Positions 3,887 to 20,025 of a stretch of DNA of 38,783 nt are shown piece after piece. The stretch spans positions 1 through 38,783 of the forward strand of contig VHDH01000021.1 in NCBI GenBank assembly GCA_016871445.1. Reading direction: 5' to 3'. The notes below the pieces were generated by a model. That model made no database searches. It was not told the origin of the DNA and saw only the letters and a list, made by a program, of their open reading frames with translations. The first letter of the stretch is position 1; the number at the start of each line of letters is the position of its first letter. The stretch is from Verrucomicrobiota bacterium (GTDB lineage Bacteria; Verrucomicrobiota; Verrucomicrobiia; Limisphaerales; SXTU01). The translations under genes were made by a program, and so were the position numbers.

Positions 3887-5629
3887 ATGAGCCAACTCAC
3901 CATCGCCGACGGAGCCACGCGGGAATTGCTGGAACGCATGCTGGCGGACCGGCAACTCTCCGTGCTCGACGCCCAGGTCTTCGCCAAGTCCGGCGGAGCC
4001 GCCACCGAGGATGCGGTCCTACGCTGGCTGGCGAAGGAATACGACGTGCCGTTCAACGCGCTCGACACCATTGAGCCCGACCGGCAAGTGCTCTCCCTGT
4101 TTCCCGCGCGCGTGCTGCTCAAGGAGCAACTGCTACCACTTAAACGCGACAACGGCACGGTGGAAATCGCCACCAGCCGCCTCTTCGCCACGCAGGGCCT
4201 CGACACGCTGAAGGCCATGACCGGCCTCTCGCTCCGGCCCGTGCTCGCGCCCACCGAAGCCATCGGGCGCGAGATGAAGAAACACCTCGGCGTGGGCGCG
4301 GACACCATCGGCACGCTCAATGAGGAGGCCGACCTTGAAGTTGTTCAAGAGGGCTCCGCCGACGACACCGACCTCGACAGCGCCGCCGAGGACGCAAGCA
4401 TCATTCGCTTCGTCAACCAAGTGCTCCGCGACGCCATCGAACTGCGCGCGTCGGACGTTCACCTTGAACCCTTCGAGGACGAGTTCCGCATCCGCTACCG
4501 CATTGACGGCGACTTGCAGGAAGTGCCCGTGCCTCCGGCGCTCAAGCGCTTCCAGCCCGCCATCGTCTCGCGTGTTAAAATCCTTTCCCACTTGAACATC
4601 GCGGAGAAGCGCGTGCCGCAGGACGGGCGCATCAAAATCCGCGTGGACACGCACGAGGTGGACATCCGCGTCTCCATCATCCCGATGCTCCACGGCGAAG
4701 CAGTGGTGATGCGTTTGCTGCGGCAAAATTCCAAGCTGCGCGGCATGGGCGACCTCGGCATGGGCACGCGCGAACTGGACTGCTTCCGGCGCGTCGTGCA
4801 GCTCCCGCACGGCATCGTGCTCGTCACCGGCCCCACCGGCTCCGGCAAGACTTCGACGCTTTACACGGCGCTGAACGAAATCAACGACCACGTCCGCAAA
4901 ATCATCACGATTGAAGACCCCGTCGAATATCAGCTCAAGGGCGTGAACCAGATTCAGGTCAACGAAAAGTCCGGCCTGACCTTCGCGCGTGGTCTGCGTT
5001 CGATTCTCCGCCACGACCCGGACGTCTGCCTCATCGGTGAAATCCGCGACCAGGAGACAGCGCAGATTGCCGTGCAGGCATCGCTCACGGGCCACTTGGT
5101 TTTCTCCACCCTGCATACCAACGATGCCCCCGGCGCGCTGACCCGCCTCGTAGACATGGGCGTCGAACCGTATCTCGTCGCCAGTTCGCTCGAAGCCGTG
5201 CTGGCACAACGCCTGGTGCGCGTGCTTTGTCCGCATTGCAAACAGGTAGACGATTCGCCCACGGCGGCGGTTTATAAAGACAAGCTCGGCATTCCGCTGA
5301 ACCACAAAATTTACAAGGCCGTCGGCTGCCGCGAGTGTCGCAATACCGGTTTCCATGGTCGGCACGCCATCTTCGAGTGGATGGATACCAACGTCGAAAT
5401 TCGCCAACTCATTCTCAAGAACGTCTCGACCGACATCATCCGCGAAGCCGCCATCCGCGACGGCATGAAAACACTGGCCGAAGATGGCTGGCGGCTCGTG
5501 CGCCTCGGCATGACAACGGTTGAAGAAGTGCTGAGCGTGACTACCGCAAAGGAAGTCTCCCGCACCAACGTGGATGAAAAAGACGGCGGCGATGAACCCA
5601 CGGCGGCGGAACTGGCGGTGGCAAGATAA
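3887..5629 (+). CDS. gspE: Type II secretion / type IV pilus assembly ATPase GspE
   Basis: A 580-residue hexameric cytoplasmic ATPase that powers pseudopilus assembly. Domains in order: the N-terminal GspE/PilB (MshEN-like) domain (about 1-140), an acidic linker (145-170), the N2 domain (about 170-290, with ASDVHLEP at 188-195), then the RecA-like ATPase core: Walker A GPTGSGKT (315-322), Asp box TIEDPVEY (341-348), Walker B LIGEIRD (382-388) and His box STLHTNDA (407-414). A zinc-binding loop is present, with Cys448, Cys451, Cys481 and Cys484. All catalytic motifs are intact and the length is normal. The C-terminus has about 40 extra charged residues after the core. It is followed after 2 bp by gspF, in the same operon. 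Confidence 0.96.
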   Translation: MSQLTIADGATRELLERMLADRQLSVLDAQVFAKSGGAATEDAVLRWLAKEYDVPFNALDTIEPDRQVLSLFPARVLLKEQLLPLKRDNGTVEIATSRLFATQGLDTLKAMTGLSLRPVLAPTEAIGREMKKHLGVGADTIGTLNEEADLEVVQEGSADDTDLDSAAEDASIIRFVNQVLRDAIELRASDVHLEPFEDEFRIRYRIDGDLQEVPVPPALKRFQPAIVSRVKILSHLNIAEKRVPQDGRIKIRVDTHEVDIRVSIIPMLHGEAVVMRLLRQNSKLRGMGDLGMGTRELDCFRRVVQLPHGIVLVTGPTGSGKTSTLYTALNEINDHVRKIITIEDPVEYQLKGVNQIQVNEKSGLTFARGLRSILRHDPDVCLIGEIRDQETAQIAVQASLTGHLVFSTLHTNDAPGALTRLVDMGVEPYLVASSLEAVLAQRLVRVLCPHCKQVDDSPTAAVYKDKLGIPLNHKIYKAVGCRECRNTGFHGRHAIFEWMDTNVEIRQLILKNVSTDIIREAAIRDGMKTLAEDGWRLVRLGMTTVEEVLSVTTAKEVSRTNVDEKDGGDEPTAAELAVAR

Positions 5630-5631
5630 GC

Positions 5632-6975
5632 ATGACCTCCTTCTCCTATCGCGCGTTGCAGGCAAATGGCTCCGTCACCGAAGGTGTGCTAGAGGCGGGT
5701 AGCCGCGCGGACGCGTTCAAGCAGATGGAGGCGCGCGGCCTGCGGCCCATCACCCTGAGCGAGCGCAATGGTTCGACCAAAACCGTTACCACCGCCTCAC
5801 CCAAACCCGTCACGAAAGATAACAAGCCCGCACCCAAAGACCCGGCCACGAAGACCACAACGGCGTCAAAGGAAACCAAAACCTCCGCGCCCGTCGCAAA
5901 TGTTCCCTTGGCAACAAGCTTCGGCTTCGGCGCCAACAAAATTACGCCGCGGATGCTTGAGAATTTTACCCGCCTGCTTTCCAGTTTGCTGGCCGCGGGC
6001 GTGCCGTTGAGCCGCGCGCTGGTGATTCTGCAACGCGAGGCCGCTAACCCCGCCGCGCAAGCAAAGTGGAAGGAAGTTCACGACCTCGTCGTGGACGGCC
6101 TCTCGCTCGCCGACGCGATGGCAAAGTCGCCGGAGGTTTTTCCGCGCGTGTATGTCGCGATGGTCGAGGCCGGCGAGACCGGCGGCTTTCTCGATGTGGT
6201 GCTCAAGCAAATCGCCGACTTTCAGGCCAGCGAGAAGGAGATGAAGTCGAAGGTGATGACCGCGATGCTCTATCCGGCCATTCTGCTCGTGCTCGCGCTT
6301 GGCGTGCTGGTCTTCCTGCTCGTCTTCTTCATCCCGCGCTTCCAACTCGTCTTCCAAGGTTTTGGCGCGAAGCTCCCGCTGCTCACCCAAATCATTATCG
6401 GCGCAAGCGACGTGTTGCGGAACTACGGCGTCCTGCTGCTGCTGGGCGTGGGCATCGGCGGTTACCTAGCGCGGAACTGGGTGACTTCGCCGGTCGGCCG
6501 TCGCGCGTGGGAAGGCTTCATCCTGAAGGTGCCGACCATTGGCGCGCTGGTTGCGCAGTTCGCGATGGCGCGCTTCTGCCGAATGCTTGGCACGCTGCTG
6601 GGCGCGGGCGTGCCGCTCATCGCCTGCTTGAACGTCGCGCGCCGCTCCATTGGCAATCAAATCCTAGTGGATGCTGTGGCGCACTCCATTGACCGCGTGA
6701 AGGAAGGCAAATCCCTCGGCCCGAGCTTGGGCGACTGCCGCATCCTTTTCAGCGGCTCGACGCTGGAAATGATTTCTGTCGCTGAGGAAAGCGGCAAGCT
6801 GGACGGCGAACTTATCCGCATTGCGGACGTGACGGAAGGCGATTTGGACCGGCAGTTAAAGACCGCCGTGGCGATGGCTGAGCCGCTGATGCTCTTCGTC
6901 ATTGCCGGGTTCATCGGCACCATTTTCATCGGCATGGTCATCCCGATTTTCACACTCCAAGAACACATCAAGTAG
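5632..6975 (+). CDS. gspF: Inner-membrane platform protein GspF
   Basis: A 447-residue polytopic membrane protein that anchors GspE and the growing pseudopilus. It starts with the conserved FSYRALQANG segment, followed by a Lys/Thr/Pro-rich linker (about 48-95) that is longer than in typical GspF and probably disordered. Two homologous GspF domains follow (about 105-235 and 305-440), each with the TRLLSSLLAAGVPLSRAL / CRMLGTLLGAGVPL type helix and the VAxVEAGETGG / VAEESGKLD motif. Membrane helices are near 212-236, 264-281 and 417-441. The start ATG lies 2 bp after the gspE stop codon, indicating translational coupling. Confidence 0.95.
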   Translation: MTSFSYRALQANGSVTEGVLEAGSRADAFKQMEARGLRPITLSERNGSTKTVTTASPKPVTKDNKPAPKDPATKTTTASKETKTSAPVANVPLATSFGFGANKITPRMLENFTRLLSSLLAAGVPLSRALVILQREAANPAAQAKWKEVHDLVVDGLSLADAMAKSPEVFPRVYVAMVEAGETGGFLDVVLKQIADFQASEKEMKSKVMTAMLYPAILLVLALGVLVFLLVFFIPRFQLVFQGFGAKLPLLTQIIIGASDVLRNYGVLLLLGVGIGGYLARNWVTSPVGRRAWEGFILKVPTIGALVAQFAMARFCRMLGTLLGAGVPLIACLNVARRSIGNQILVDAVAHSIDRVKEGKSLGPSLGDCRILFSGSTLEMISVAEESGKLDGELIRIADVTEGDLDRQLKTAVAMAEPLMLFVIAGFIGTIFIGMVIPIFTLQEHIK

Positions 6976-6993
6976 CTCTCAACTTCAAACACC

Positions 6994-7452
6994 ATGAACA
7001 TCCGCATCACTGAAACCCGAGTCCCTCAACTCCAAATCTGGAAAGGCCAACGAGGCTTCACTCTTATCGAGTTGCTACTCGTGCTGGTCATCCTCGGCAT
7101 CCTCGCTGCCATTGTCGTGCCGAAGTTCTCCGGTCGCACCGAGCAGGCCAGGGAGACTGCCGCGAAAACGCAAATCGCCGGCTTTAGCACTGCGTTGGAT
7201 GCCTATGAGGTAGACACCGGTGGCTACCCGAAAGGAGCCGACGGGCTGATGAATCTCATACAAGCCCCGAGCGACGTGCAGGGCTGGAAAGGCCCTTACA
7301 TGAAAGACGTGCCGTCCGATCCGTGGGGTCGCCCTTACGTTTATGTGAGTCCCGGTCGCAACAACCCCAACGGCTATGATCTCTACTCCATCGGCGCAGA
7401 CGGCCGCGAAGGCACCGAAGACGACGTGACCAACTGGAATCGGACGCGGTAA
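6994..7452 (+). CDS. gspG: Major pseudopilin GspG
   Basis: A 152-residue type II secretion major pseudopilin. A 21-residue leader ends in Gly21, and prepilin peptidase would cut before Phe22 (G/FTLIELLLVLVILGILAAIVVP), leaving the conserved Glu at mature position 5 (Glu26). The C-terminal domain carries the GspG signature: GGYPKGADGLMNL, GWKGPYMKDVPSDPWGRPY, and NGYDLYSIGADGREGTEDD, the loop that binds calcium in known GspG proteins. It forms the pseudopilus shaft. No prepilin peptidase gene is in the window. The leader is longer than the usual 5-8 residues; no closer in-frame ATG is available. Confidence 0.96.
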   Translation: MNIRITETRVPQLQIWKGQRGFTLIELLLVLVILGILAAIVVPKFSGRTEQARETAAKTQIAGFSTALDAYEVDTGGYPKGADGLMNLIQAPSDVQGWKGPYMKDVPSDPWGRPYVYVSPGRNNPNGYDLYSIGADGREGTEDDVTNWNRTR

Positions 7453-7573
7453 GGCACCAGAGATGAAGTTCCCTACATCCAAGTTTAAACGTCCGACGCT
7501 GAAGGTTCAAGGCGCACGCCCTGAACTTTGGCGCTTGTGCCTTGAACATTGGGCGTTTCGGCCTTCGGGCATC

Positions 7574-8158
7574 ATGCACTTCCGCCGCGCCTTCACCCTC
7601 ATCGAACTTATCCTCGTCATGGCGCTCATCACCATTGTAGTGAGCGTGTCGCTGCCTTCGCTAAAAGGTTTCTTCCAAGGCCGAGACCTAGATTCCGAGG
7701 CACGCCGTTTCCTCTCGCTCACGCGCTACGGCGCAAGCCGCGCGGTGGCCGAGGGCATCCCCATCGAGCTGTACGTGGATACCGCACAACGCCTTTACGG
7801 GCTGCGTGCGCAGGCTGGGTTTCTCGAACGTGACCCCAAGCGCGTCGAATACAAATTGCTGCCTGAGGTCTTGCTGGAAGTCACCGCCGCACCGCAAAAG
7901 AAAGCCTCCGGCGAGGACAACTTGGACAATCCCGACGAGCAGTTCCTTAACAACACCGAGGACACCTCTGACACTGGCAACTCCATCAAAGTTATCCGCT
8001 TCACTTCCGATGGCTTTATCGGGGACAAGAGCCCCGCCGCCGTCATCCTTCGCCAACGTGGCGACAGCGCCCCCGCTGCTAACGGCGACGCCATCGCCAT
8101 AGCGCAAAGCGCCACGCGCTTGAACTATGAAATTCGCACCCTCCAACTCCAGCGTTAA
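7574..8158 (+). CDS. gspH: Minor pseudopilin GspH
   Basis: A 194-residue protein with a class III prepilin signal, FRRA/FTLIELILVMALITIVVSVS: Ala at -1 (Ala6), Phe7 at +1, Glu11 at +5. After the hydrophobic helix comes a GspH-type domain (SLTRYGASRAVAEGIPIELYVD). I chose ATG 7574 because it gives the compact 6-residue leader typical of pseudopilins. An upstream in-frame ATG at 7463 would add 37 residues encoded by an inverted-repeat-containing stretch (7505-7547) that does not look like coding sequence. The gene lies between gspG and gspI and overlaps the gspI start by 32 bp. GspH is a minor tip/initiation pseudopilin. The acidic insert near residues 112-130 (DNLDNPDEQFLNNTEDTSD) is unusual. 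Confidence 0.88.
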   Translation: MHFRRAFTLIELILVMALITIVVSVSLPSLKGFFQGRDLDSEARRFLSLTRYGASRAVAEGIPIELYVDTAQRLYGLRAQAGFLERDPKRVEYKLLPEVLLEVTAAPQKKASGEDNLDNPDEQFLNNTEDTSDTGNSIKVIRFTSDGFIGDKSPAAVILRQRGDSAPAANGDAIAIAQSATRLNYEIRTLQLQR

Positions 8159-8528
8159 GCGCCACCGCGCCGCGTTCACGCTGGCCGAGGTGCTGGCGGC
8201 GCTGCTATTCATGGCCATCGTCATCCCTGTGGCGCTGGAGGGTCTCCGCATTGCCAGCCGCGCAGGGCAAGTTGGCGAGCGGAAGGCTGCGGCGGCGCGA
8301 GTGGCCGAGCGGGTTTTGAACGAGTTGTCAGTGACAGGTGCAGGCCCGGGCGGCACGAACGACGGAACCATCACGGAGGGCGTGCACGAGTTTCGGTGGA
8401 CTATCCAATCCGAGGCGTGGCCCGAGGACAACTCGCTGCAACAAACTATGGTGCGCGTGATCTATTTTGTGCAGGGCAGCGAATACGAAGTAACCGTATG
8501 CACGCTGACGGGAACAGCGACGCTATGA
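8127..8528 (+). CDS. gspI: Minor pseudopilin GspI
   Basis: A 133-residue protein with a type III signal: a basic leader of 16 residues ending Ala16, then F17-TLAEVLAALLFMAIVIPVA with Glu21 at +5. The -1 residue is Ala rather than Gly. The short C-terminal domain (VAERVLNELSVTG, then HEFRWTIQSE) fits GspI in size and layout; its partner GspJ follows. It begins 32 bp inside gspH, and its stop overlaps the gspJ start as ATGA (8525-8528), so translation is coupled. GspI normally complexes with GspJ and GspK at the pseudopilus tip. Confidence 0.88.
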   Translation: MKFAPSNSSVKRHRAAFTLAEVLAALLFMAIVIPVALEGLRIASRAGQVGERKAAAARVAERVLNELSVTGAGPGGTNDGTITEGVHEFRWTIQSEAWPEDNSLQQTMVRVIYFVQGSEYEVTVCTLTGTATL

Positions 8529-9355
8529 ACCGCGCTTTGGCCAAAGTTAACGAGTCCGAAGTCCGAAGTCTTGCGACTGCCGGACGCGTTGCTGGTTTTT
8601 CATTTTTGACCCGCACCCGCTCCGCTTTCTCCCTTCTCGAACTGCTTATCGCCATCATGGCTTTTGCTATCGTGCTGGTGGCCATCAACGGCGTTTTTTA
8701 TAGCGGCCTTAAACTTCGTAACCGCACCGCCGCGTCACTCGAAAAATCCCTGCCGCTCACGCAGGCGTTGCTGATCCTCAAACGCGACCTCGCCAACCTC
8801 GCCCCCCCGTCCACCAGTAACTCCCGCCTCGTCGGTGAGTTGCAGTCCACACCGACCGGGGGCGCAGGCGGCCTAACAAGCGCGCCACGCTTCGGTTCCA
8901 TCGCGGGCGCGACCGGCGCCATAAGCGGCCAGACCGCACAAGTTAGCCCAGACTTCCACACGCTCTCCGGCCTGCTGGACACCGCAGCGCCTTGGCCCAA
9001 CGCACAGCGGGTCGCCTACCTGCTCACAGACTCCACCAACCGCAATGCGCTGGGCAAGGATCTCGTCCGGGCCGTCACGCGGAACCTGCTTCCAGCCGGC
9101 GGCTTTGAGGAAGTGCCCACCGAGCAATTACTGCTAACCGACGTGGAGAATGTGTTCTTCCTCTACCACGACGGCACAACTTGGGTGGAGACGTGGGACT
9201 CGACGGCGGATGAAACGAGGAAACTCCCGCGGGCAATCATGGTGCGAATCCAGTTTGCGGCAGAGACGCGGTCCGACCTGCCGCCACCAGTGGAACTCGT
9301 CGTACCCATCGTGGCCCAGGCCGGTACGAACTCGGTCAGCGGAGGTTCGCTATGA
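8525..9355 (+). CDS. gspJ: Minor pseudopilin GspJ
   Basis: A 276-residue protein with a late pseudopilin signal: TRSA/FSLLELLIAIMAFAIVLVAI, with Ala34 at -1 and Glu39 at +5. The 34-residue leader is long; an in-frame TTG nearer the signal (codon 28) is an alternative start. The leader DNA contains the doubled motif GTCCGAA (8548-8561 region), which looks like spread intergenic repeat sequence rather than conserved coding. The C-terminal domain is larger than in proteobacterial GspJ (about 195-200) and includes a Gly/Ala-rich stretch around residues 105-140. It is joined to gspI and gspK by ATGA overlaps at both ends. Confidence 0.87.
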   Translation: MNRALAKVNESEVRSLATAGRVAGFSFLTRTRSAFSLLELLIAIMAFAIVLVAINGVFYSGLKLRNRTAASLEKSLPLTQALLILKRDLANLAPPSTSNSRLVGELQSTPTGGAGGLTSAPRFGSIAGATGAISGQTAQVSPDFHTLSGLLDTAAPWPNAQRVAYLLTDSTNRNALGKDLVRAVTRNLLPAGGFEEVPTEQLLLTDVENVFFLYHDGTTWVETWDSTADETRKLPRAIMVRIQFAAETRSDLPPPVELVVPIVAQAGTNSVSGGSL

Positions 9356-10824
9356 AACTTCCCCACTCGCTCAGCTGCCGACGCATGGGAGTGGAACCCT
9401 GCGACGGAAAACTCCGCCATCGCACCTCAGTGACGACGAGCCAACGTGCCTCGGTTCTAATCATTGTTATGTGGGTTGCATTCGGCCTCGTGAGCCTCGC
9501 AATTTACTTCGCGAACTCTTCCTCGCTGGAACTGCGCGCGGCAGACAACCGCGTTGCTGCACTCGAGGCCGAGCAAGCCATTGCCGGCGCGGCGCGTTAC
9601 GTGAGCAACGCCCTTGCGAATGTAACCGAGCCGGGCCTGCCTCCGGATCCTGCTTTCTTCCGAACCGAAGCTCTGCTCATCGGCAATGCGCGCTGTTGGC
9701 TCATCGGCCAGCCGCTGGAGGAGGAGGATGACTTGCGGGTCACCTTCGGGCTGGTAGACGAGAGTGCAAAGCTCAACCTCAACACCGCCACGCTCGCCAT
9801 GCTCAATAAGCTTCCGCGCATGACCGATGCGCTTGCCGCCGCCATCATTGATTGGCGCGACGCGGACAGTGAGATCTCTGAGAACGGCGCGGAGGACGAA
9901 GTCTATGGCCGGCTAAACCCCGCATATCGCTGCAAGAACGCGCCCTTCGAGACCATTGAAGAACTGCGCCTAGTCAATGGCTTCACCTACGACGTCCTTT
10001 ACGACGAGGACGCGAACATGAACGCCGTGCTCGACGACAATGAAAACAACGAGGCCGCCAGTGCGCCGAACGACAACCAAGACGGAGTGCTCAACCGCGG
10101 CGTGCTCGCCTACCTCACCGTTCACGGCCAGCTCTCAAATCTCCGCACCAACGGCGAGCCGAAGGTAAACATCGCTACCGTGGATGCAAACACGCTTCGG
10201 CAAGTGATGAGCGACATGGGTATCGGCAACGATACGATTCTCCGCGTGCTGGCCACCTTCTCGGGTATTGGCGGACCCAACGGCGGCGGCGGTCAACCCG
10301 GCCGGCCTAGCGGCGGAGGCGGAGGCGGCAACCCCTCCCTGACCAACAACAGCGTGCTGCAGTTCTATATGCGGAGCGGGCTCACGGCGGAGGAGTTCGC
10401 GCTCATTGAAAACGATTTAACCGTGTCCACCAACGCAGTGATTGAAGGCTTGGTAAACGTCAACACTGCGACCGCCACCGTGCTCGCCTGCCTGCCTGGC
10501 TTGGACGCCGCCAAGGCAGACGCGCTCATCGCCGCACGTGCGGGGCAGGCAACCTTGCAGACCTCCATCGCGTGGGTAAAGGACGTGCTGGACGAACAAA
10601 GCGCGACACAAGTAGGGCCATTCATCACCGGCCGCAGCCAGAGTTTCTCGGCCGACATCGCGGCAGTGGGCCGGCACGGCCGCGGTTACTCGCGCGTAAA
10701 GTTCATTTTCGATACTATCGAAGGCACGCCCAAAATCCGCCTGCGGCAGGAACTCACGCACCTAGGCTGGGCTTTAGGCTGGGCCGTCCGCGAGCAGATC
10801 GCCGAGATGCAGAACGCACCATGA
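9352..10824 (+). CDS. gspK: Minor pseudopilin GspK
   Basis: A 490-residue protein matching the large tip pseudopilin GspK. The leader is followed by a hydrophobic helix (RASVLIIVMWVAFGLVSLAIYF, about 32-53) that lacks Glu at +5, as is normal for GspK. The GspK domain includes GLVDESAKLNLNTATLAMLNKLP (about 137-159) and a second helix-hairpin-helix-like motif near 365-395 (VNVNTATATVLACLPGLDAAKADALIAAR). It is longer than the usual 320-340 residues, with an Asp/Asn/Glu-rich insert around 220-245 that could bind calcium and a Gly-rich insert near 304-325. It overlaps gspJ (ATGA at 9352) and gspL (ATGA at 10821). Confidence 0.9.
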   Translation: MKLPHSLSCRRMGVEPCDGKLRHRTSVTTSQRASVLIIVMWVAFGLVSLAIYFANSSSLELRAADNRVAALEAEQAIAGAARYVSNALANVTEPGLPPDPAFFRTEALLIGNARCWLIGQPLEEEDDLRVTFGLVDESAKLNLNTATLAMLNKLPRMTDALAAAIIDWRDADSEISENGAEDEVYGRLNPAYRCKNAPFETIEELRLVNGFTYDVLYDEDANMNAVLDDNENNEAASAPNDNQDGVLNRGVLAYLTVHGQLSNLRTNGEPKVNIATVDANTLRQVMSDMGIGNDTILRVLATFSGIGGPNGGGGQPGRPSGGGGGGNPSLTNNSVLQFYMRSGLTAEEFALIENDLTVSTNAVIEGLVNVNTATATVLACLPGLDAAKADALIAARAGQATLQTSIAWVKDVLDEQSATQVGPFITGRSQSFSADIAAVGRHGRGYSRVKFIFDTIEGTPKIRLRQELTHLGWALGWAVREQIAEMQNAP

Positions 10825-12275
10825 ACGTCCCCCTAAAAACCACTGCGAATACGCTGCTCGGCCTCGTGCTGGACGGCAACCGGCTGGAGTTTGCCAGCGT
10901 GAAACGCACTAACGGCTCGGCGGAGATTCGCAAGTCCGCTTCCGCCGCGCTCATGCTCGATCCGCTCACGAACGACCCCGAACTCGTCGGAGCTGAGATC
11001 CGCTCGCACCTGGAAAAGGCCGGGGTGCGCGACCGCCGCTGCGTGGTAGGCGTACCCCTCAACTGGGCGCTTACGTTGTCCATGAAGGTGCCCGCCGGAC
11101 TCGCAGCCGAGGACGTGCACAGCCTGCTGGCAATGGAAGCCGAACGCGGCTTCCCCTACGCGCCGGATACATTGATGGTCTCGTCGTCGCTCGTGGGCCC
11201 GGCGGACGGAGAGCGCACGGCCACACTCGTAGCCATCCCGCGCGACCATATCATACGGCTGCAAGAGGCTCTGGAATCCATCGGGCTGCGGCCGGTGAGC
11301 TTTTCCCTTGGCCTTGCGGCGTTGCAGCCAGTCGGGGAATCCGAAACCGCCGGCGGCGTAATGGTGCTCTTACCCGGCGAGAAGGGTGTGGGCCTGCAGA
11401 TCACCGCGCAAGGCGGCGTAGCCGCGCTGCGGCTGCTGGAAGGCGCCCTTGAGCAAGAGGGAGCGGAGCGTCGTGTGCAAAAGGATTACGTGGCCCGCGA
11501 ACTGCGTATCACGCTGGGACAATTACCTGACGACGTGCGAAGCGTAGTGCGAAACCTGAAGGTGTTTGGCAGCGACGAACTAGCCGAGGAGCTTTACGAG
11601 CAGGTGAAGCCGCGCGCCGAAGCACTTGGGCTGCGCGCACAACTGGTAAGAGAATTTGCCCCGATGGAGCTTGGCCCCACGATACCGAACGGAACCGCTG
11701 TCTCCACCGCGCTGGCGCTGGCACTGCGGCACTTAGCCGGCCGGTCCATGAGCTTCGAATTCTTACCGCCGCGCGTGAGCAAGTGGAAACAATTCACCGA
11801 GCAACATGCATCCAAGAAACTCGTCTATGCCGCCGCCGTATGCGGCTTTGTGGTGCTGGGTGTGGTCGGGCTATTTGGCTGGCAGCAGTGGCGTTTGAAC
11901 CAGTTAGAAAAGCAATGGCGAGGGATGGAGGCGCGCGTCAACACCGTCAAAGACATGGAGGCGCGCATCCGCAAATATCGACCGTGGTATGACGAGTCCT
12001 TCCGCGCGTTGAGCATCCTTAAAGCCGTCACGCAAGCGTTCCCCGAGGACGGCACCGTGGCCGCCAAGTCCGTCGAAATCCGCGAGCGCGCCGGCGTGAC
12101 TTGCAGCGGCACCGCACGCAACAATGCCGCGCTCCTCCGCATGCTCGACTTACTCCGCGCCTCCAAGCTAGTCAAAGACCTGAAAGTCGAGCAGGTCAAG
12201 GGCGGGCAAAATAACCAGCCGCTCGAGTTCACCTTCAACTTCAACTGGGCCGATCCCGTTCAAGGCAACCGATGA
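10821..12275 (+). CDS. gspL: GspL-type protein (PilM-like actin-fold domain fused to PilN-like domain)
   Basis: A 484-residue bitopic inner-membrane protein. The cytoplasmic part (about 1-320) has the actin-like PilM/GspL fold: LLGLVLDGNRLEFASV at the start, VVGVPLNWALTLSMKVP near 75-91, and a later LPGEKGVGLQITAQGG strand pair near 184-199. One membrane helix lies at about 334-353, followed by a coiled-coil (about 354-390) and a PilN-like periplasmic domain. GspL recruits GspE to the membrane. The start is ATG 10821, overlapping the gspK stop; the frame is open upstream to 10572 but only as a shadow of gspK. It overlaps gspM by ATGA at 12272. Confidence 0.88.
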   Translation: MNVPLKTTANTLLGLVLDGNRLEFASVKRTNGSAEIRKSASAALMLDPLTNDPELVGAEIRSHLEKAGVRDRRCVVGVPLNWALTLSMKVPAGLAAEDVHSLLAMEAERGFPYAPDTLMVSSSLVGPADGERTATLVAIPRDHIIRLQEALESIGLRPVSFSLGLAALQPVGESETAGGVMVLLPGEKGVGLQITAQGGVAALRLLEGALEQEGAERRVQKDYVARELRITLGQLPDDVRSVVRNLKVFGSDELAEELYEQVKPRAEALGLRAQLVREFAPMELGPTIPNGTAVSTALALALRHLAGRSMSFEFLPPRVSKWKQFTEQHASKKLVYAAAVCGFVVLGVVGLFGWQQWRLNQLEKQWRGMEARVNTVKDMEARIRKYRPWYDESFRALSILKAVTQAFPEDGTVAAKSVEIRERAGVTCSGTARNNAALLRMLDLLRASKLVKDLKVEQVKGGQNNQPLEFTFNFNWADPVQGNR

Positions 12276-12826
12276 ATCCCAAGAGTCGCGAACAACTGCT
12301 GGCGCTCCTCGCCGTCACCGCCGTCCTGCTAATGGTGGGCGACAAATTCGTCCTCCAGCCACTCACGGCGAGTTGGGCCGCGCGCAACAAGCGCATTGCC
12401 GACCTTGAGAAGCAGGTAGTCGAGGGTGCAGCGAAACTCGACCGGGAAAGCGCCATCAGCGACCGTTGGAAAACCATGCGCGTCACCGCGCTGACCAACG
12501 ACATCTCGGCCGCCGAGAGCCAGGCATTGCGCGCCTTCGAGCGTTGGGGCAAAGACGCAAACGTGACCGTAAGCGGCCTGAAACCGGCGTGGAAACGCAC
12601 CTCCGACCGCGAGGAGTATCAGACGCTCGAATGCCGCGCCGACGCCACTGGCAGCCTGTCGAGCCTCGCGCGCTTCTTATATCAAATTGAAAGGGACCCG
12701 CTGGCCATGAAGGTTGAGGTCGTGGATCTCACAACTCGGGATAACGAAGGCAGAAACCTCACCCTGTCGCTGCAACTAAGCGGCCTGGTGCTCACCCAAA
12801 AGAAGAATGACAACGGCGCCAAATAA
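12272..12826 (+). CDS. gspM: GspM/PilO-like inner-membrane protein
   Basis: A 184-residue protein with one N-terminal membrane helix (about 8-30, LLALLAVTAVLLMVGDKFVL), a coiled-coil (about 36-75) and a ferredoxin-like periplasmic domain (about 95-175; LECRADATGSLSSLARFLYQIE). This is the GspM/PilO layout, and its place right after gspL supports the call. GspM forms heterodimers with GspL in the assembly platform. The start ATG overlaps the gspL stop (ATGA, 12272-12275). Confidence 0.85.
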   Translation: MNPKSREQLLALLAVTAVLLMVGDKFVLQPLTASWAARNKRIADLEKQVVEGAAKLDRESAISDRWKTMRVTALTNDISAAESQALRAFERWGKDANVTVSGLKPAWKRTSDREEYQTLECRADATGSLSSLARFLYQIERDPLAMKVEVVDLTTRDNEGRNLTLSLQLSGLVLTQKKNDNGAK

Positions 12827-12887
12827 CCCCGTGCTCACCTCCGTCATCCCTCTGGCCCCCGTGCGCCAGTCATGCCAGAATCACGCC

Positions 12888-13979
12888 ATGAAGCCGATTC
12901 GCCCGATCGCGTTCACCTGCATCCTCACGCTACTGCTCGGCACTTGCCTCGCGCCCGCACAACCGGTGCGCACCAACAGCCCCGCGCCGTCCAATGCGTC
13001 CGTTAAGTCCTCGTCTAAGCAGTCCGCCGTCAAGGCCACGCCCGCACCGCCCACGGGCACCTTCGACGACTTCAAATCCATACCGGATCGGAATATCTTC
13101 AATACTCGCCGCTACGCCGGCCGCGCCGCTAACCCCGACACCCAACCACCCCCCCCACCGCGCCGCGACCCTGTCATTGAGTCCTTTTCGCTACTCGGCA
13201 CGATGGAGTATGAAAAAGGCAGCGTGGCGTTCTTTGAGGGATCCAATTCCAGCCTGCGCAGGTCCGCCAAAGTGGACGACTCCATCGCCGGCTGTAAGAT
13301 TACGGCCATCGAGCCATCGGTCATTACACTCGAGACGGATGGCAAGCCCATGCAGTTGAGAGTCGGCTACATGCTACGGCGCGAAGACCAGGGACAATGG
13401 CAGACGCGCGAGGCGGAACGACCCTACGAATCAGCCTTTTCCTCGAGCTTTTCCTCAGGCTTTTCCTCAGGCTTTTCCTCGGGAACCAGCCCTAACTCAT
13501 CATTCGGCGGCTTTTCCTTCGGCTCCCGAGACTCGCGAAGTTCATCCTTCTTCAGCCGCGACTCACGCAGTTCCTCTAGCTCCCGCTCAAGCTCGTCATT
13601 TGGCAGCGGCAATCCATCGGAAATAGCCCAATCCCGCATCCGCGATCAGGACCGCAACGGCGATGGCCGGGTCTCACGCGAGGAAGCTGACAGCCGACTG
13701 CGCGACCGTTTCCGCGAGATTGACCGCGATGGCGATGGTTTCGTGACGGGCGACGAATACACCGCCTACTACACCGCCCGCTTTGGCGGCGGCTCTGGCA
13801 CACCATCCCCCACGGGCAGTTCCTTCAACAATTCCGCCAGTCCCGGGACTTTCAGCTCCGGGAGCAGCGGAAACAATTCCAGCGGTGGCGGCTCTCCCTC
13901 TGGCTCGACCAGTTCGAGCAGCGGTGAAAGCGACCTGCTGCGCCGTCTCATGGAACAACGTGCCCGGGAAAACCGATAA
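12888..13979 (+). CDS. GspC/PilP-like protein with a Ser-rich linker and two EF-hands
   Basis: A 363-residue envelope protein. N-terminal hydrophobic segment (about 5-25; signal peptide or membrane anchor), a Ser/Pro linker, then a GspC homology-region-like domain (about 58-165): DDFKSIPDRNIFN, SFSLLGTMEYEKGSVAFFEG, and a VGYMLRRED ending. A Ser/Phe/Arg-rich low-complexity linker (about 183-243) leads to two canonical EF-hand loops, Asp255-Glu266 and Asp279-Glu290, and a Gly/Ser tail. The gene lies between gspM and the secretin, where the linker protein between inner membrane and secretin is expected. EF-hands are not part of known GspC proteins. Start: ATG 12888 precedes the hydrophobic segment directly; an in-frame ATG at 12807 overlaps gspM and is less likely. 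The GspC assignment rests on position and weak motifs. Confidence 0.65.
   Translation: MKPIRPIAFTCILTLLLGTCLAPAQPVRTNSPAPSNASVKSSSKQSAVKATPAPPTGTFDDFKSIPDRNIFNTRRYAGRAANPDTQPPPPPRRDPVIESFSLLGTMEYEKGSVAFFEGSNSSLRRSAKVDDSIAGCKITAIEPSVITLETDGKPMQLRVGYMLRREDQGQWQTREAERPYESAFSSSFSSGFSSGFSSGTSPNSSFGGFSFGSRDSRSSSFFSRDSRSSSSSRSSSSFGSGNPSEIAQSRIRDQDRNGDGRVSREEADSRLRDRFREIDRDGDGFVTGDEYTAYYTARFGGGSGTPSPTGSSFNNSASPGTFSSGSSGNNSSGGGSPSGSTSSSSGESDLLRRLMEQRARENR
13437..13484 (+). repeat. 12-bp tandem repeat (four units) in the Ser-rich linker
   Basis: TTTTCCTCAGGC and variants occur four times in a row (13437-13448, 13449-13460, 13461-13472, 13473-13484), encoding FSSG-type units. Two neighbouring units are identical, which suggests recent slippage. 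Length changes would stay in frame and only alter the spacing between the GspC-like domain and the EF-hands. Confidence 0.85.
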
Positions 13980-13980
13980 T

Positions 13981-15666
13981 ATGAAAAACACCCTAACCCT
14001 TATCCTCACCGCCGGCCTCGCCGGTTTCACGCTCGCGCAAACTCCGCCGACACCGCCCGCCGTTCCAGCTCCTACTCCGGCAACACCAACGCCCAAAACT
14101 GATGACGAGCCCCGCCCGGCTGGTCTGGCCGCCGCCCTCGCGGCCGAAGCTGCCGCCAAGGCCGCCGAGGCCGCGCGCCCGCCCGTGCCGAAGGAGCCGA
14201 TAAAACGCATCACCAGCGATACCGAGAAGGGTATCAAGCTCAACTTTCGCGGCGTGCCACTAGAGATGGTTCTCAATTACTTCGCTGAGGCCGCCGGCTT
14301 CACCATCATCCCGAAGGTGGACATTCGCGGCCGCGTAGACGTGTGGAGCGAGGATGCCCTCACCAAGACGGAAGCTGTTGACGTACTTAATAATGTCCTG
14401 TCCCGCAATGGTTACGCCGCCTACCTCTCTGGCCGCACGCTCAACGTGGTGAACAAGGACGAGATGAAGCAACGCCCCCTCCCGGTGAACGCCGGGACCG
14501 ACCCCGAGAAAATCCCGACCAGCGAAAACATGGTCACGCAGATTCTCCCGGTGAAGTTCATCAGCGCCGAGCAGCTCATCCGCAACCTCGAGACGCTGCT
14601 GCCCACGACCTCCGTGATGTCGGCCAACGCCGGTGCCAACGCCCTCATCCTCACCGACACGCAGGTCAACATCCGACGCGTAGCCGAGATCATCAAGGCT
14701 TTGGACACCCCCGTAGCCAGCGTCACTAGTATCAAGGTTTTCAGCCTCAAGTTCGCTGACGCCAAAGCACTAACAACCATAGTTAAAGACCTCTTCAACC
14801 CGGACAACTCCTCCAGCGGCGGCGGCCGGGGCCAACAGGGTGGCATTGACCCTCGCCAGATCCTTTTCCAACGTTTCGGTGGTGGTGGTGGTGGTGGTAG
14901 CAGCGGCAGCAGCACCCAAGGCGGAGGACGTGTCTCCACCCCCAAAGTCGTGGCAGCGGCAGATGAGCTGAGCAACTCGCTCATTGTTAGCGGACCCGAA
15001 GCGCAGATGGCGCTAATTGAGGACGTTATTAAGCAAGTGGATGTGCCAGTGGAAGACGTGACTGAGGTGAAAGTTTTCCGCCTCAAGCACGCTAACGCCG
15101 ACGATACGGCTACGCTGATTAAAAACCTCTTCCCTGACACCACCACGCAGGGCAACCGCACCGGTGGCTCGCGGGGCGGGTTCACCGGCTTCCGGCCGCC
15201 GGGCTCAGGCGGAGGCGGGACGGCGGCTACCTCCAACAGCAGTGAGCGTCTCCTTAAACAAAACCGTGTAGTGGCCGTGGCCGACAATCGCACTGCATCA
15301 GTAATTATCACCGCCTCGCCTGCGCTGATGGAGCAGATCAGCGGAATGATCTCACAACTGGATTCTGACCCTTCCAAACAGCAAAAAGTCTTTGTGATAC
15401 CCGTGGAGAACGCCGACCCCTCACAGGTGCAACAAATCCTACAGAACCTCTTCCCGACCGCCAGCGGGCGGGCCGCCTCGCAAAATAACGGCCTCAACGG
15501 CCGCAGCGGCTTCGGCACCGGCACCACCACCCGTAACAACGGCGGGCGCAACACCGGCGCGGGCACGGGCGCGGGCACAGGCTTCTCCGGCCGCAACTCC
15601 TCCAGCGGGTTTGGCGGGGGCGGCAACAGCGGCTTCGGTGGCAGCGGTTTTGGCAACAGCCGTTAA
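13981..15666 (+). CDS. gspD: Split secretin GspD, periplasmic N-domain part
   Basis: A 561-residue exported protein holding secretin N-domains but no secretin barrel. Signal peptide about 1-19, a Pro/Ala-rich linker, N0 (about 80-160, from GIKLNFRGVPLEMVLNYFAE), then KH-like N-domains starting near VTQILPVKFISAEQ, VTSIKVFSLKFADAK and VTEVKVFRLKHANAD. The last two have Gly-rich inserts between their halves. The protein ends with only the first half of another N-domain (KVFVIPVENADPSQVQQILQ) and a Gly/Asn-rich tail. The matching second half opens the next gene. It would sit in the periplasm and contact the inner-membrane parts. ATG 13981 follows the GspC-like stop by 1 bp. The domain assignment is by eye. 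Confidence 0.85.
   Translation: MKNTLTLILTAGLAGFTLAQTPPTPPAVPAPTPATPTPKTDDEPRPAGLAAALAAEAAAKAAEAARPPVPKEPIKRITSDTEKGIKLNFRGVPLEMVLNYFAEAAGFTIIPKVDIRGRVDVWSEDALTKTEAVDVLNNVLSRNGYAAYLSGRTLNVVNKDEMKQRPLPVNAGTDPEKIPTSENMVTQILPVKFISAEQLIRNLETLLPTTSVMSANAGANALILTDTQVNIRRVAEIIKALDTPVASVTSIKVFSLKFADAKALTTIVKDLFNPDNSSSGGGRGQQGGIDPRQILFQRFGGGGGGGSSGSSTQGGGRVSTPKVVAAADELSNSLIVSGPEAQMALIEDVIKQVDVPVEDVTEVKVFRLKHANADDTATLIKNLFPDTTTQGNRTGGSRGGFTGFRPPGSGGGGTAATSNSSERLLKQNRVVAVADNRTASVIITASPALMEQISGMISQLDSDPSKQQKVFVIPVENADPSQVQQILQNLFPTASGRAASQNNGLNGRSGFGTGTTTRNNGGRNTGAGTGAGTGFSGRNSSSGFGGGGNSGFGGSGFGNSR
14878..14898 (+). repeat. (GGT)7 microsatellite in gspD
   Basis: Seven consecutive GGT codons encode a poly-Gly run in the loop of the third N-domain. 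Slippage would change loop length by whole residues and leave the frame intact. Confidence 0.85.
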
Positions 15667-15701
15667 TCGCCAGAAACAAGACACTTCAACTGAAAGGTAT
15701 C

Positions 15702-16895
15702 ATGATGAAATTGACATCGTTAAAATGGATGAGTGCAACCTGTCTTTTGGTGGGTGCGCTGGCGGGAACTGCTCACGCACAGTTTCAAGGTTTTGGTGGT
15801 TTCGGAGGATTTGGAGGTGGCGGTGGTGCTGGCAATCGCACCTCCACCCAGAGCACAGGTGGACGCCCACTGGGTGGGGCGGACATTTCCTTTGACCCAG
15901 AAACGCGCCGACTAATCGTGGTCACGGACGACCAAACGGTTGAGGACATACGCAAAGTAATCACCGGCTTAGACCGTCCCTCGCCGCAGGTGCTCATCAA
16001 GGTGATCTTTCTGGAAGCGACTTATCGCAAGGACATGGATCTCGGTTTTGCCGGCGGTTACAACCATGATACCAAGCTTAATGGCGTAAGCGGGGTGGTA
16101 GGCCAAGGATTTGGAAATTCTCCCATCACCACGCTGGCGGGTCTCGCCGCCCAAGCCACTCCCGGCGCGGGCATTTACTCGATCCTCGGCAGCGACTTTC
16201 AAGCCACGCTCCGGGCCATAGCTACCGCCGGCAAGACTGAGGTGCTCTCCCGTCCTTCAATTCTCGCCCGCAATAATCAATTGGCCACCATCAGTTTGGG
16301 TCAGCAGGTGCCGTTGATCACTAACACGCGTTTCGACAACTTCGGCAACCAGATCAATAGCGTCAGTTACCAGAGCGTCGGTGTAAATCTGAGTGTCACC
16401 CCATTTATCTCGTCCGACGGTAATGTGGAGATGACCGTCACGCCGGAAATTTCATCACTCGCGGATCGTTCCCAGTGGGTAGCCATCGCTGGCGGCACCA
16501 ACTCGGTGGCTGCGCCCGTAATCAACTCCCGCGCGGCTACCACGACTGTGGTGGTGCCCAACGGCCAGACCGTCGTCATCGGCGGCCTCATGGAAAACAC
16601 CCAACAGGAGTCGGAAAATAAAATTCCCGGACTGGGGGATATCCCGCTGCTCGGAAACCTCTTCAAGCGGAAGCAAAAGGAGAACGTTAAGCGCGAGTTG
16701 ATGATATTCCTCACGCCAACGATCGTCCAAGCACCAGCTCAACTCGCTGGCATCACCAAGTCCGAACAGGAGAACAAGGTCGTCACACCCAAGGCCTTTT
16801 CACAGGAAGAATTGGATCGCTTTCTCGAAGCGCTGCCCAACAAGCCCGCGCCCGCCGCCCCGACCCCACCTCCAAAAGCGCCTGCGCCCAAATAG
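15702..16895 (+). CDS. gspD: Split secretin GspD, outer-membrane secretin barrel part
   Basis: A 397-residue protein with its own signal peptide (about 1-26, ending AHA/Q), a Gly-rich segment (about 28-57), the second half of an N-domain (DISFDPETRRLIVVTDDQ... VITGLDRP, about 60-93), and a complete secretin barrel (about 95-345): VLIKVIFLEATYR, LSRPSILARNNQLATISLGQQVP, VGVNLSVTPFIS and the signature VVIGGLMENTQQESENKIPGLGDIPLLGNLF. A Pro/Ala-rich tail follows. It would form the outer-membrane pore through which substrates leave. It lies 35 bp after the N-domain gene, with an AAAGGT ribosome-binding-like site 5 bases before ATGATG (second ATG at 15705), which is stronger than most starts here. 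No lipobox or pilotin-binding S-domain is obvious. Confidence 0.92.
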   Translation: MMKLTSLKWMSATCLLVGALAGTAHAQFQGFGGFGGFGGGGGAGNRTSTQSTGGRPLGGADISFDPETRRLIVVTDDQTVEDIRKVITGLDRPSPQVLIKVIFLEATYRKDMDLGFAGGYNHDTKLNGVSGVVGQGFGNSPITTLAGLAAQATPGAGIYSILGSDFQATLRAIATAGKTEVLSRPSILARNNQLATISLGQQVPLITNTRFDNFGNQINSVSYQSVGVNLSVTPFISSDGNVEMTVTPEISSLADRSQWVAIAGGTNSVAAPVINSRAATTTVVVPNGQTVVIGGLMENTQQESENKIPGLGDIPLLGNLFKRKQKENVKRELMIFLTPTIVQAPAQLAGITKSEQENKVVTPKAFSQEELDRFLEALPNKPAPAAPTPPPKAPAPK

Positions 16896-17032: not shown

Positions 17033-18550
17033 ATGATCCACAACCCTCGCATTGCCTTCTTGCTGCTGTTGGCCGCTTGGGTGGCGCTCGCCATCTGGCA
17101 GACCGTGGAGCACAACCGCGTCGAAACCGCCGCTCGCGAAGTCCTTTTGCGCCGCTCGCGCGACATCACCGGCACGCTGGGCAAGTTCATCGAGTCACAA
17201 CGACGGTTCGGCGTTGTCTCACAAGAGCGGATGGAGATTGCCCTGCAATCCGTTATCACCTTCGGCGGATTGCAATCCCTCGCCCTGCTTAACAAAGCCG
17301 GTGACGTCGTCGCCTCCGCCGGGCAACCCGCCGACCTCGAAGCCCGCGGCCTCGTGCAGAACGGCGTCCACTGGGGCGATAAAATCCTCACCGTCGTCAA
17401 CCCGATCGACCTAGGCACCAACATCGTCGTCGTTCTGCCGCCCCGCGACACCAATGCCCCGCCGCGCGAGGACTTCCGGCCAACGCCGCCGCAGCAGCGC
17501 CCGCCCCGCGAGCCACGCCCGGACGAGACCAACACCGTTCCCGTCACTCTGAGTGTTGACAGCACCAATGCCGCCGGCAGCAGCGTCACCTCCACCAACC
17601 GCAACGACCGCCGCGATGCCCTGCGCCGCGCGTTCAGCGGATCCTTCGGGCGGCCGCCGTGGATTCCCGAAGCGGACTTCAAGCGCCTCACCGAGACTCG
17701 CACCACGCACGGCTTCGTCATCGCGCTATCCACCGACCCATTGCTCCGCGCGAAAGAGGAAGACCTGTGGACCCGCACGCTCATTGTCAGCTTCGCCGGC
17801 GTTGCGGCCCTTGGCATCGCGCTCGCCCTCCGCAACCTCAGCCAGTCCGCTGACCTCCAGTTCCGCCTTCTCCGCGCCAGCGAGATGAACACCCACCTGC
17901 GCGAGATGAACCTCGCCGCCGCCGGCCTCGCGCACGAGACCAAGAACCCCCTCAACATCATCCGCGGCCGCGCCCAAATGATCTCCCGACAAGACGACGC
18001 GCCAGCCACCATCCGCGAAAATTCACGCAGCATAGTTGACGAGGCCGACCGCGTGACCGCGCAGTTGAACGAGTTCATCAACTACTCGCGCCCGCGTGAG
18101 GTGAAGCGTGCCCCCGTGGCCCTTGGCAACGCCGTCGCCGAGGTCGGCCGTGCGCTCAGCTACGACCTCGGGGAGAAGGCCATCCAAATCACCGTCCAGC
18201 CCGACCTCCCGCGGATCGAGGCGGATGAGCAGCTCCTCCGGCAGGCGCTTTTCAACCTGCTCATAAACGCCACGCAGGCACTGGAGCCCGGCGGCCAAAT
18301 CCACGTCACCGCCACACGCAGCCCGAACGGCACGCTGGCCTTGGAAATCCGCGACAACGGCCCCGGCGTCGCGGCCGAAAACCGGAAAGAGATTTTTAAG
18401 CCCTATTTTACCACGCACCAGAAAGGCACCGGCCTCGGTCTTGCCATCGTGCAGCAAATTGTCCTCGCCCACGGTTGGGAGATTGAATGCCTGGCGAACG
18501 AGCCGCGCGGCGCATGCTTCCGCGTAAGCCACGTCAAGACGCTCGGGTGA
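17033..18550 (+). CDS. Membrane sensor histidine kinase (PilS/ZraS/NtrB-like)
   Basis: A 505-residue two-component sensor. TM1 about 7-22, a periplasmic sensor segment (about 23-245) containing a Pro/Arg/Thr-rich stretch (137-190), and TM2 about 249-266. The cytoplasmic part has the H-box AAGLAHETKNPLNIIRG with phospho-accepting His301, N-box NLLINATQAL (408-417), G1 DNGPG (441-445), F-box-like IFKPYFTT (454-461) and G2 GTGLGL (465-470). The HExKNPL form of the H-box and the short linker fit kinases that pair with NtrC-class regulators, and such a regulator follows 113 bp downstream. What it senses is unknown; its place after the secretion operon suggests an envelope or pilus signal, as for PilS. 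Confidence 0.92.
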   Translation: MIHNPRIAFLLLLAAWVALAIWQTVEHNRVETAAREVLLRRSRDITGTLGKFIESQRRFGVVSQERMEIALQSVITFGGLQSLALLNKAGDVVASAGQPADLEARGLVQNGVHWGDKILTVVNPIDLGTNIVVVLPPRDTNAPPREDFRPTPPQQRPPREPRPDETNTVPVTLSVDSTNAAGSSVTSTNRNDRRDALRRAFSGSFGRPPWIPEADFKRLTETRTTHGFVIALSTDPLLRAKEEDLWTRTLIVSFAGVAALGIALALRNLSQSADLQFRLLRASEMNTHLREMNLAAAGLAHETKNPLNIIRGRAQMISRQDDAPATIRENSRSIVDEADRVTAQLNEFINYSRPREVKRAPVALGNAVAEVGRALSYDLGEKAIQITVQPDLPRIEADEQLLRQALFNLLINATQALEPGGQIHVTATRSPNGTLALEIRDNGPGVAAENRKEIFKPYFTTHQKGTGLGLAIVQQIVLAHGWEIECLANEPRGACFRVSHVKTLG

Positions 18551-18663
18551 CGGCCCGAGGCGCGCGATTGGGGACACTTCGTTTGGCCGCGTGAATTCAA
18601 AGCCCGTGCTGCCAAGCTGGACGAATTTACTGCTTTAACGAACAGTCTGCCTCCACGAGCCGC

Positions 18664-20025
18664 ATGACTGCCAAGCCCAAAGAGACCGCCGCACCTCGCA
18701 TTCTTGTCGTGGACGACGACCCTGGCCAGCGCAGCCTTCTGCAGACTTTCCTCGAGCGTAACGGCCACCAGCTGCTGGTAGCCGAATCGGGCGAAGCCGC
18801 GCTCCAGATACTCGCCGCCGCGCCCGTCAGCCTGATGATCTCCGACGTGCGGATGCCCGGCATGACTGGCCTGGAAACGCTCCGCCGCGCACGCCAACTC
18901 CACCCCAAGCTCCCGGTGCTGCTGGTCACCGCCTACGCCGATATTCGTGAAGCTGTCGGCGCAATGCGCGACGGCGCAGTAAACTATCTTTCCAAGCCTA
19001 TTGATCTCGATGAGTTGCTCCGCAGCATCGAGCAAATCACCGGCCCGCAAACGGCCACCGTCGGCGACCCACCGCCGCTGCCACCAGGCATACTCGCCGT
19101 CAGCCCGCTCATGCGGGCGGTGTTCCACGACGCCGCGCTCATTGCGCCATCCGAAAGCCGGGTGCTCATCACGGGCGAAAGTGGCGTGGGCAAGGAGGTG
19201 CTGGCCGACGCCATCCATCGCTGGAGCCCACGCGCGAAGGGGCCGCTGGTGAAGGTGAATTGCGCAGCCATCCCCGAGACGCTGCTGGAGAGCGAGCTGT
19301 TTGGCCACGAGAAGGGCGCATTCACCGGCGCACACCAGGCGCGCACGGGCCGCTTCGAAGAAGCCGGCGGTGGCACCATTTTCCTGGACGAGATCAGTGA
19401 GATGTCGCCGCAGTTGCAAGCCAAGCTGCTACGCGTGACACAAGATGGCACCTTCCGGCGCGTCGGCTCCGGCAAGGAACTGCTCACGAACGCGCGCATC
19501 CTCGCGGCGACGAACAAGAATCTTGAGGCGCTAATTAAAGAAGGCCGCTTTCGCGAGGACTTGTTCTACCGGCTGGCGGTTGTCGAACTTGGCGTGCCCC
19601 CGTTGCGCGAGCGGCGTGAGGACATATTACCGCTAGCCTCGCACTTCATCGCGCAGTTCGGCAGTGACCAGACGCGCTTTTCGCCCGCCGTGACCGAGGG
19701 GCTGGAACGTTACGCATGGCCGGGCAACGTGCGTGAGCTGCGCAACGCGATGGAGCGCGCGGCACTTCTCTCGCGCGGCGGCGTGGTGCTGTCCGAGCAC
19801 TTGCCCGGCCGGGTGCGGCCCAGTGATACCAATGCTTCAGCCGCCGGGCCGGGCGACCCGCAACGACTTGAGGAAATCGAGCGCGACGCTATCCTCGCGG
19901 CGCTGAAGCGACTCGACTACAACCGCACCGAGACCGCCAAGGCCCTAGCCATCAGCCGCCGAGCATTGACCTACAAGATTCAACGGTTGCGTGAATTGGG
20001 GTTCCCGGTGGACCCGCCGGCGTAG
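18664..20025 (+). CDS. NtrC-family sigma-54-dependent response regulator
   Basis: A 453-residue regulator with three domains. Receiver (about 11-125): acidic pocket Asp17/Asp18, phospho-acceptor Asp61 in ISDVRMPG, Lys111. AAA+ sigma-54 activation domain (about 142-370): Walker A GESGVGKE (171-178), GAFTGA (218-223, contacts sigma-54), Walker B GTIFLDEI (237-244), arginine-finger region FREDLFYRL, and WPGNVREL. Fis-type helix-turn-helix (about 403-443): NRTETAKALAISRRALTYKI. All key residues are intact, so it should hydrolyse ATP to open sigma-54 promoters. The best such promoter in the window is at 3214-3229. Its cognate kinase is the gene upstream. A PilR- or ZraR-like role is inferred from context. 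Confidence 0.94.
   Translation: MTAKPKETAAPRILVVDDDPGQRSLLQTFLERNGHQLLVAESGEAALQILAAAPVSLMISDVRMPGMTGLETLRRARQLHPKLPVLLVTAYADIREAVGAMRDGAVNYLSKPIDLDELLRSIEQITGPQTATVGDPPPLPPGILAVSPLMRAVFHDAALIAPSESRVLITGESGVGKEVLADAIHRWSPRAKGPLVKVNCAAIPETLLESELFGHEKGAFTGAHQARTGRFEEAGGGTIFLDEISEMSPQLQAKLLRVTQDGTFRRVGSGKELLTNARILAATNKNLEALIKEGRFREDLFYRLAVVELGVPPLRERREDILPLASHFIAQFGSDQTRFSPAVTEGLERYAWPGNVRELRNAMERAALLSRGGVVLSEHLPGRVRPSDTNASAAGPGDPQRLEEIERDAILAALKRLDYNRTETAKALAISRRALTYKIQRLRELGFPVDPPA

Follow-up and report, generated by a model that had tools for sequence, protein, structure and literature searches.

A type II secretin apparently encoded as two exported chains broken inside one N-domain in Verrucomicrobiota

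A large group of Verrucomicrobiota appears to encode the channel of its type II secretion system (T2SS) in the outer membrane as two, and sometimes three, exported proteins, with the break lying inside a small domain. In the textbook picture a secretin ring is built from a single kind of chain. The products of the two genes described here, A and B, are very probably two chains of one T2SS secretin, in which the last N-domain (N4) is rebuilt by complementation in the periplasm, as suggested by gene sequences and a predicted structure. Since the break falls inside a small domain, the pieces would have to meet beyond the inner membrane and restore the domain there. We infer a physical A-B complex with 1:1 stoichiometry and a function in secretion; the split-secretin species are known mostly from draft genomes.

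Organization of the locus

The window, i.e., the whole stretch of 38,783 nt that was analyzed, lies on contig C21 in the draft genome (3.5 Mb) of an uncultured member of Verrucomicrobiota, the close relatives of which in a scan of named genomes were labelled Pedosphaera, Limisphaera, Limisphaerales and Verrucomicrobia subdivision 3. It carries a T2SS operon that ends with genes A and B (Table 1). The operon contains the GspE, F and G genes, minor pseudopilins and GspK, L, M and C, among which the matches to E, F, G, J and K are clear and those to L, M and C are weak. The GspC-like protein is the likely partner of the N0 domain of A. Directly 3′ of the secretin genes, at 17033-20025 of the window, a sensor kinase and a sigma-54-type response regulator were read from the sequence.

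Table 1. Features of the T2SS operon and of the secretin genes A and B (window coordinates).
Feature	Position	Strand	Basis
T2SS operon upstream of the GspC-like gene, A and B	3887..12826	+	
GspE	3887-5629	+	Clear match
GspF	5632-6975	+	Clear match
GspG	6994-7452	+	Clear match
Pseudopilin	7463-8158	+	
GspJ	8396-9355	+	Clear match
GspK	9352-10824	+	Clear match
GspL/PilM-PilN-like	about 10815-12275	+	Weak match
GspM-like	12272-12826	+	Weak match
GspC-like protein (HR-like region, EF-hand, Ser/Gly-rich tail)	12807..13979	+	GspC_delta NF041515 1.5e-7 (weak); EF-hand 2.2e-8
Gene A, secretin N-domain protein, 561 aa	13981..15666	+	Profile matches; kept upstream of B in relatives
A signal peptide MKNTLTLILTAGLAGFTLA	13981..14040	+	Sequence
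A N0 (GspC-binding domain in T2SS)	14230..14463	+	PF21305 E=1.4e-9
A N1, without insert	14533..14712	+	PF03958
A N2, Gly-rich insert at 14797-14946	14728..15048	+	Broken in this insert in three-chain relatives
A N3, Gly-rich insert at 15133-15267	15064..15372	+	PF03958
A N4a QKVFVIPVENADPSQVQQILQNLF, putative first (beta-alpha) half of split domain	15382..15453	+	Read-through model of the same-genus pair, pLDDT 93-94; co-variation with N4b
A Gly/Asn tail	15454..15663	+	Invariant arginine at 15532-15534
Gene B, secretin barrel protein, 397 aa	15702..16895	+	Profile matches
B signal peptide, ends GTAHA/Q	15702..15779	+	Sequence
B Gly-rich lead	15780..15881	+	pLDDT <50 over most of the lead in models
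B N4b, putative second (beta-beta-alpha) half of split domain	15882..15980	+	PF03958 positions 26-69; model; co-variation
B secretin barrel domain	15981..16736	+	PF00263 E=4.3e-50

Both open reading frames and their layout had been proposed in an initial annotation of the sequence and were borne out by profile searches. The Pfam profiles recognize N0 and four Secretin_N stretches in A (PF03958, 6.5e-44), and no secretin barrel was found in A by profile search. The domain count of the annotation, whose layout stood, had to be corrected to N0 plus four KH-like domains, one above the three of canonical GspD. The Gly-rich inserts reported for two complete N-domains are present: they take up residues 273-322 between the N2 halves and 385-429 between those of N3, at the same point at which N4 is broken. 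B covers positions 26-69 only of the Secretin_N profile (PF03958, 6.9e-6), that is, the profile half that is missing from A. An AXA-like signal peptide site was found in 167 of 171 B proteins.

With the GspD model TIGR02517 (NCBIfam) A covers positions 1-334 (215 bits) and B positions 279-600 (242 bits), the bits of which are not summable as a score because the matches overlap at profile positions 279-334. Neither protein alone reaches the 351-bit cut-off for membership of a single protein in GspD. The barrel of the family (PF00263) is carried by B and its N0 and KH-like N-domains (PF21305, PF03958) by A, and in place of the single polypeptide there are two genes throughout the clade and three in some lineages.

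The tail of A holds an arginine that is present in 178/178 A-B pairs, mostly within an N-x-A/P-L-x-x-R motif, and that lies, in the rows listed, 12-21 residues beyond the point where the aligned N4a block stops. This residue and the free end may have a docking or lumen-facing role. A-type genes without an adjoining B were also observed (L215-L226); judged by eye they retain the half-domain and the arginine motif, and most of the genomes that contain them have an A-B pair too.

Predicted reconstitution of the N4 domain

In locus L094, which belongs to the same genus, the two genes lie in one frame with a single stop between them, and the read-through chain was folded with AlphaFold from a 72-row alignment of A, B and read-through sequences, a setup in which the halves are covalently joined instead of being separate chains. 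The two halves close into one KH-like domain in this model, as had been anticipated in the initial annotation: N4a and N4b have pLDDT of 90-94 across a 130-residue linker with values below 50, and, like these halves, N3 and a large part of the barrel are predicted at high confidence. The best structural matches of the whole model are the T2SS secretins GspD, ExeD, EpsD and PulD. In a second-look structural alignment the contiguous N-domain 144-205 of XcpQ superposes across the break on model residues 108..307 (62 residues, 1.3 Å, Z 10.3).

Co-variation was studied by mean-field coupling analysis of 178 A-B pairs, for which Neff was a modest 94, over the halves of N2, N3 and N4. Shared ancestry alone raises coupling values, and to control for this N4a-N4b was compared with the remaining block pairs from these genomes. 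N4a-N4b was the strongest of the 15 block pairs, with a mean top-ten Z of 5.10, compared with 4.63 and 4.42 for the halves of the intact N2 and N3, respectively; the remaining block pairs gave at most 4.33, a value reached by the non-partner pair N3a-N4b, which is nearly as strong. When the A-B pairing was shuffled (40 shuffles), Z of N4a-N4b fell to 1.98 on average, with a maximum of 2.76. The pair contributes 10 of the top 40 cross-block couplings, and its strand couplings cluster around a single antiparallel beta1-beta3 register, which is also that of a top coupling in the intact N3. The margin over the control block pairs is real, though not large. N4a is also about as conserved as the intact halves (1.65 bits; N2a 1.89, N3a 1.30), and the A tail reaches 2.29 bits.

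It is conceivable, if unlikely, that B alone forms a complete pore and that A is a periplasmic scaffold between GspC and the pore, touching B elsewhere, with N4a being a relic or pairing otherwise. B folded alone with AlphaFold, meant as a negative control, kept a fairly confident half-domain (pLDDT 82-88 vs. 90-94 in the read-through chain), and this mild loss implies that N4b folding may not strictly need A; the existence of A genes without an adjacent B points in the same direction. Yet N4a is conserved, co-varies with N4b above any other block pair and completes the N-domain at 1.3 Å, and even the A genes that lack B retain the half-domain and the arginine motif.

In three lineages A is broken once more, in the Gly-rich loop of N2, namely in family f48 (three genomes), in G036 (f27) and in G013/G071 (f4), at loci L157, L175, L183, L205, L209, L212 and L213. 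There A1 ends after the beta-alpha half of N2, A2 has its own signal peptide followed by the second N2 half, N3 and N4a, and B comes last. These N2-loop breaks occur at three separate places in the tree, where well-supported branches require three changes. Three exported chains, with the homologous loop of two rings broken, would be hard to explain unless loop-broken N-domains reassemble.

Conservation of the split

Within the genus B was found in 8 of the 11 genomes, each time with an A ending at the same place, and as a short frame in 123 of 196 genomes and 78 of 107 genera of the order, as well as in other orders and families of the class and in two genomes outside it. The family set comprises 182 loci with an A-type sequence upstream of B on the same strand; every B with upstream DNA examined has such a sequence, and the one family B that lacks it (L161) sits at a contig edge. 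The adjacent pair, a search for which the initial annotation had suggested, is conserved across the phylum, and together with the model and the co-evolving halves it supports the proposal, already made there, of a working two-chain secretin that would be split at a flexible loop and re-form one N-domain in the periplasm. In the B protein tree all split forms make up one clade against the one-chain secretins of related genomes (SH-aLRT 99), a pattern expected from one old fission. As the same break recurs in the genus, across the order and in the one-contig genome G081, an assembly or sequencing error was rejected.

The genome has three other secretin loci, on contigs C1, C42 and C152, so that a cell losing A-B would still have secretins of other kinds. 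This lends some weight to the idea that A and B are decaying and that the working pore of the operon is a one-chain secretin elsewhere (C1, C42). Such decay is nevertheless very improbable, since the pair is kept in 78 of the 107 sampled genera of the order with both halves under constraint. The initial annotation had held that a separate full-length GspD for this system would speak against two chains; one-chain GspD-like proteins do exist on C1 and C42, but each is near its own GspE-type ATPase, and both fall outside the split clade, as judged from their genus relatives.

The one-chain secretin on C1 (G000; L236:883-12819, + strand) is 3,978 residues long. Its single barrel is preceded by 35 matches to Secretin_N (1,138 bits), against three such domains in canonical GspD, and next to it lie its own GspE (ATPase, L237:669-2339), GspF (L237:2400-3602) and a gene resembling GspH. 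Elsewhere in the genus and the order the matching hit again falls in frames of about 3,600-4,300 aa. If these N-domains are stacked as rings, they would form a very long periplasmic tube.

The gap between the A stop and the B start has a median of about 36 nt (mostly 0-65 nt), and its length modulo 3 is distributed as 30/23/31 over the three frames (84 non-redundant pairs). In two loci (L150, L153) A and B are separated by an insertion of about 770-840 nt that is repeat-like and apparently non-coding. The random phase and these insertions indicate two genes, and on the same grounds frameshift and read-through were rejected. Three-chain genes and a frameshifted A in L141 are, besides the insertions, the other causes of apparently large gaps. 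No fused A-B orthologue was seen in the loci examined; stop-to-stop frames of 942, 765 and 638 aa around some B matches were rejected as fusions because A is in a different frame. The B ribosome-binding site, called good in the initial annotation, is only fair (AAAGG), and within the family SD-like sites precede 58 of 171 B genes (34% vs. 27% at random), which is barely above background and makes the Shine-Dalgarno sequence weak as proof of separate B translation. The chance that A and B are truly one protein, through sequencing error, programmed frameshift, read-through or later ligation, is negligible, because the short gap and the adjacency in nearly all genomes, which would suit it, are outweighed by the gap phase, the B signal peptide, the occurrence in many genera and the non-coding insertions.

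Proposed assembly and its implications

In the proposed two-chain secretin, A and B would each be exported by Sec via their own signal peptides. In the periplasm N4a (beta1-alpha1, at the end of A) would pair with N4b (beta2-beta3-alpha2, at the start of B) into one KH-like N-domain, B would form the outer-membrane barrel, and A would hang below it, with the N3-N0 rings reaching the GspC-like protein. The gene break probably arose in a long Gly-rich loop, and the tail of A, with its invariant arginine, and the lead of B may stay as free ends in the lumen or help in docking.

A conserved natural break in one ring domain that recurs at the equivalent loop of a second ring would show where a secretin tolerates cutting, and the split makes the order of secretin assembly (barrel first, vestibule later) testable. 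A separately added vestibule could permit pore insertion before the trans-periplasmic connection is made, or vestibule exchange. A bolder and rather doubtful extension is a modular secretin, in which one B would take alternative vestibules (A, or A paralogues without an adjoining B) by domain complementation; if true, the same outer-membrane pore could be connected to different inner-membrane machines.

Comparison with known secretin systems

The T2SS secretin GspD (ExeD, EpsD, PulD, XcpQ; TIGR02517), which provides the closest solved folds to the A-B model, has in common with A-B the N0, the KH-like N-domains, the barrel and an operon with GspE, F, G, J, K and L-, M- and C-like genes. A-B differs from it in being split over two chains, in having a fourth KH-like domain after N0 where GspD has three, in its Gly-rich inserts and in the break within the last N-domain. 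A-B appears to work as GspD and departs from the family by not being one chain.

In RhcC1/RhcC2 of rhizobia and the P. syringae T3SS-2, too, one gene provides the N-domains of the secretin and another the barrel, but these parts are of different origin, RhcC2 being derived from a Tad secretin with a BON domain (PMC3574062, PMC3459982). Although often called a split secretin, RhcC1/RhcC2 was for this reason rejected as a precedent of true fission (PMC3459982); no shared split domain is reported for it, whereas A and B are both GspD-type and complementary. The best match of B is GspD, and a BON domain is absent from it by Pfam. In the same filament superfamily, TadB/TadC arose by ancient gene fission of a two-domain archaeal platform protein, with the break between domains, while that of A/B lies inside one (PMC6668835).

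The initial annotation knew of no described case of such a break, and no description of domain-internal secretin fission in bacteria was found in the searchable literature on split secretins and Verrucomicrobia GspD, which covers few subscription journals. This novelty is softened by the mitochondrial T2SS, where the GspD pieces GspDN1-GspDN3 are on separate chains and GspDN2/GspDN3 are half N-domains (PMC8134430). A secretin in several chains, with half N-domains on separate ones, is what is found here, with N4a on A and N4b on B. The mitochondrial system is eukaryotic, has lost N0 and GspC, and its halves are not assignable to one domain (PMC8134430), whereas in A-B N0 is retained, a weak GspC-like gene adjoins, the genes are adjacent, and the halves can be assigned to N4 and are linked by co-variation. 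The split described here would offer a counterpart in bacteria to the puzzling divided GspD of mitochondria.
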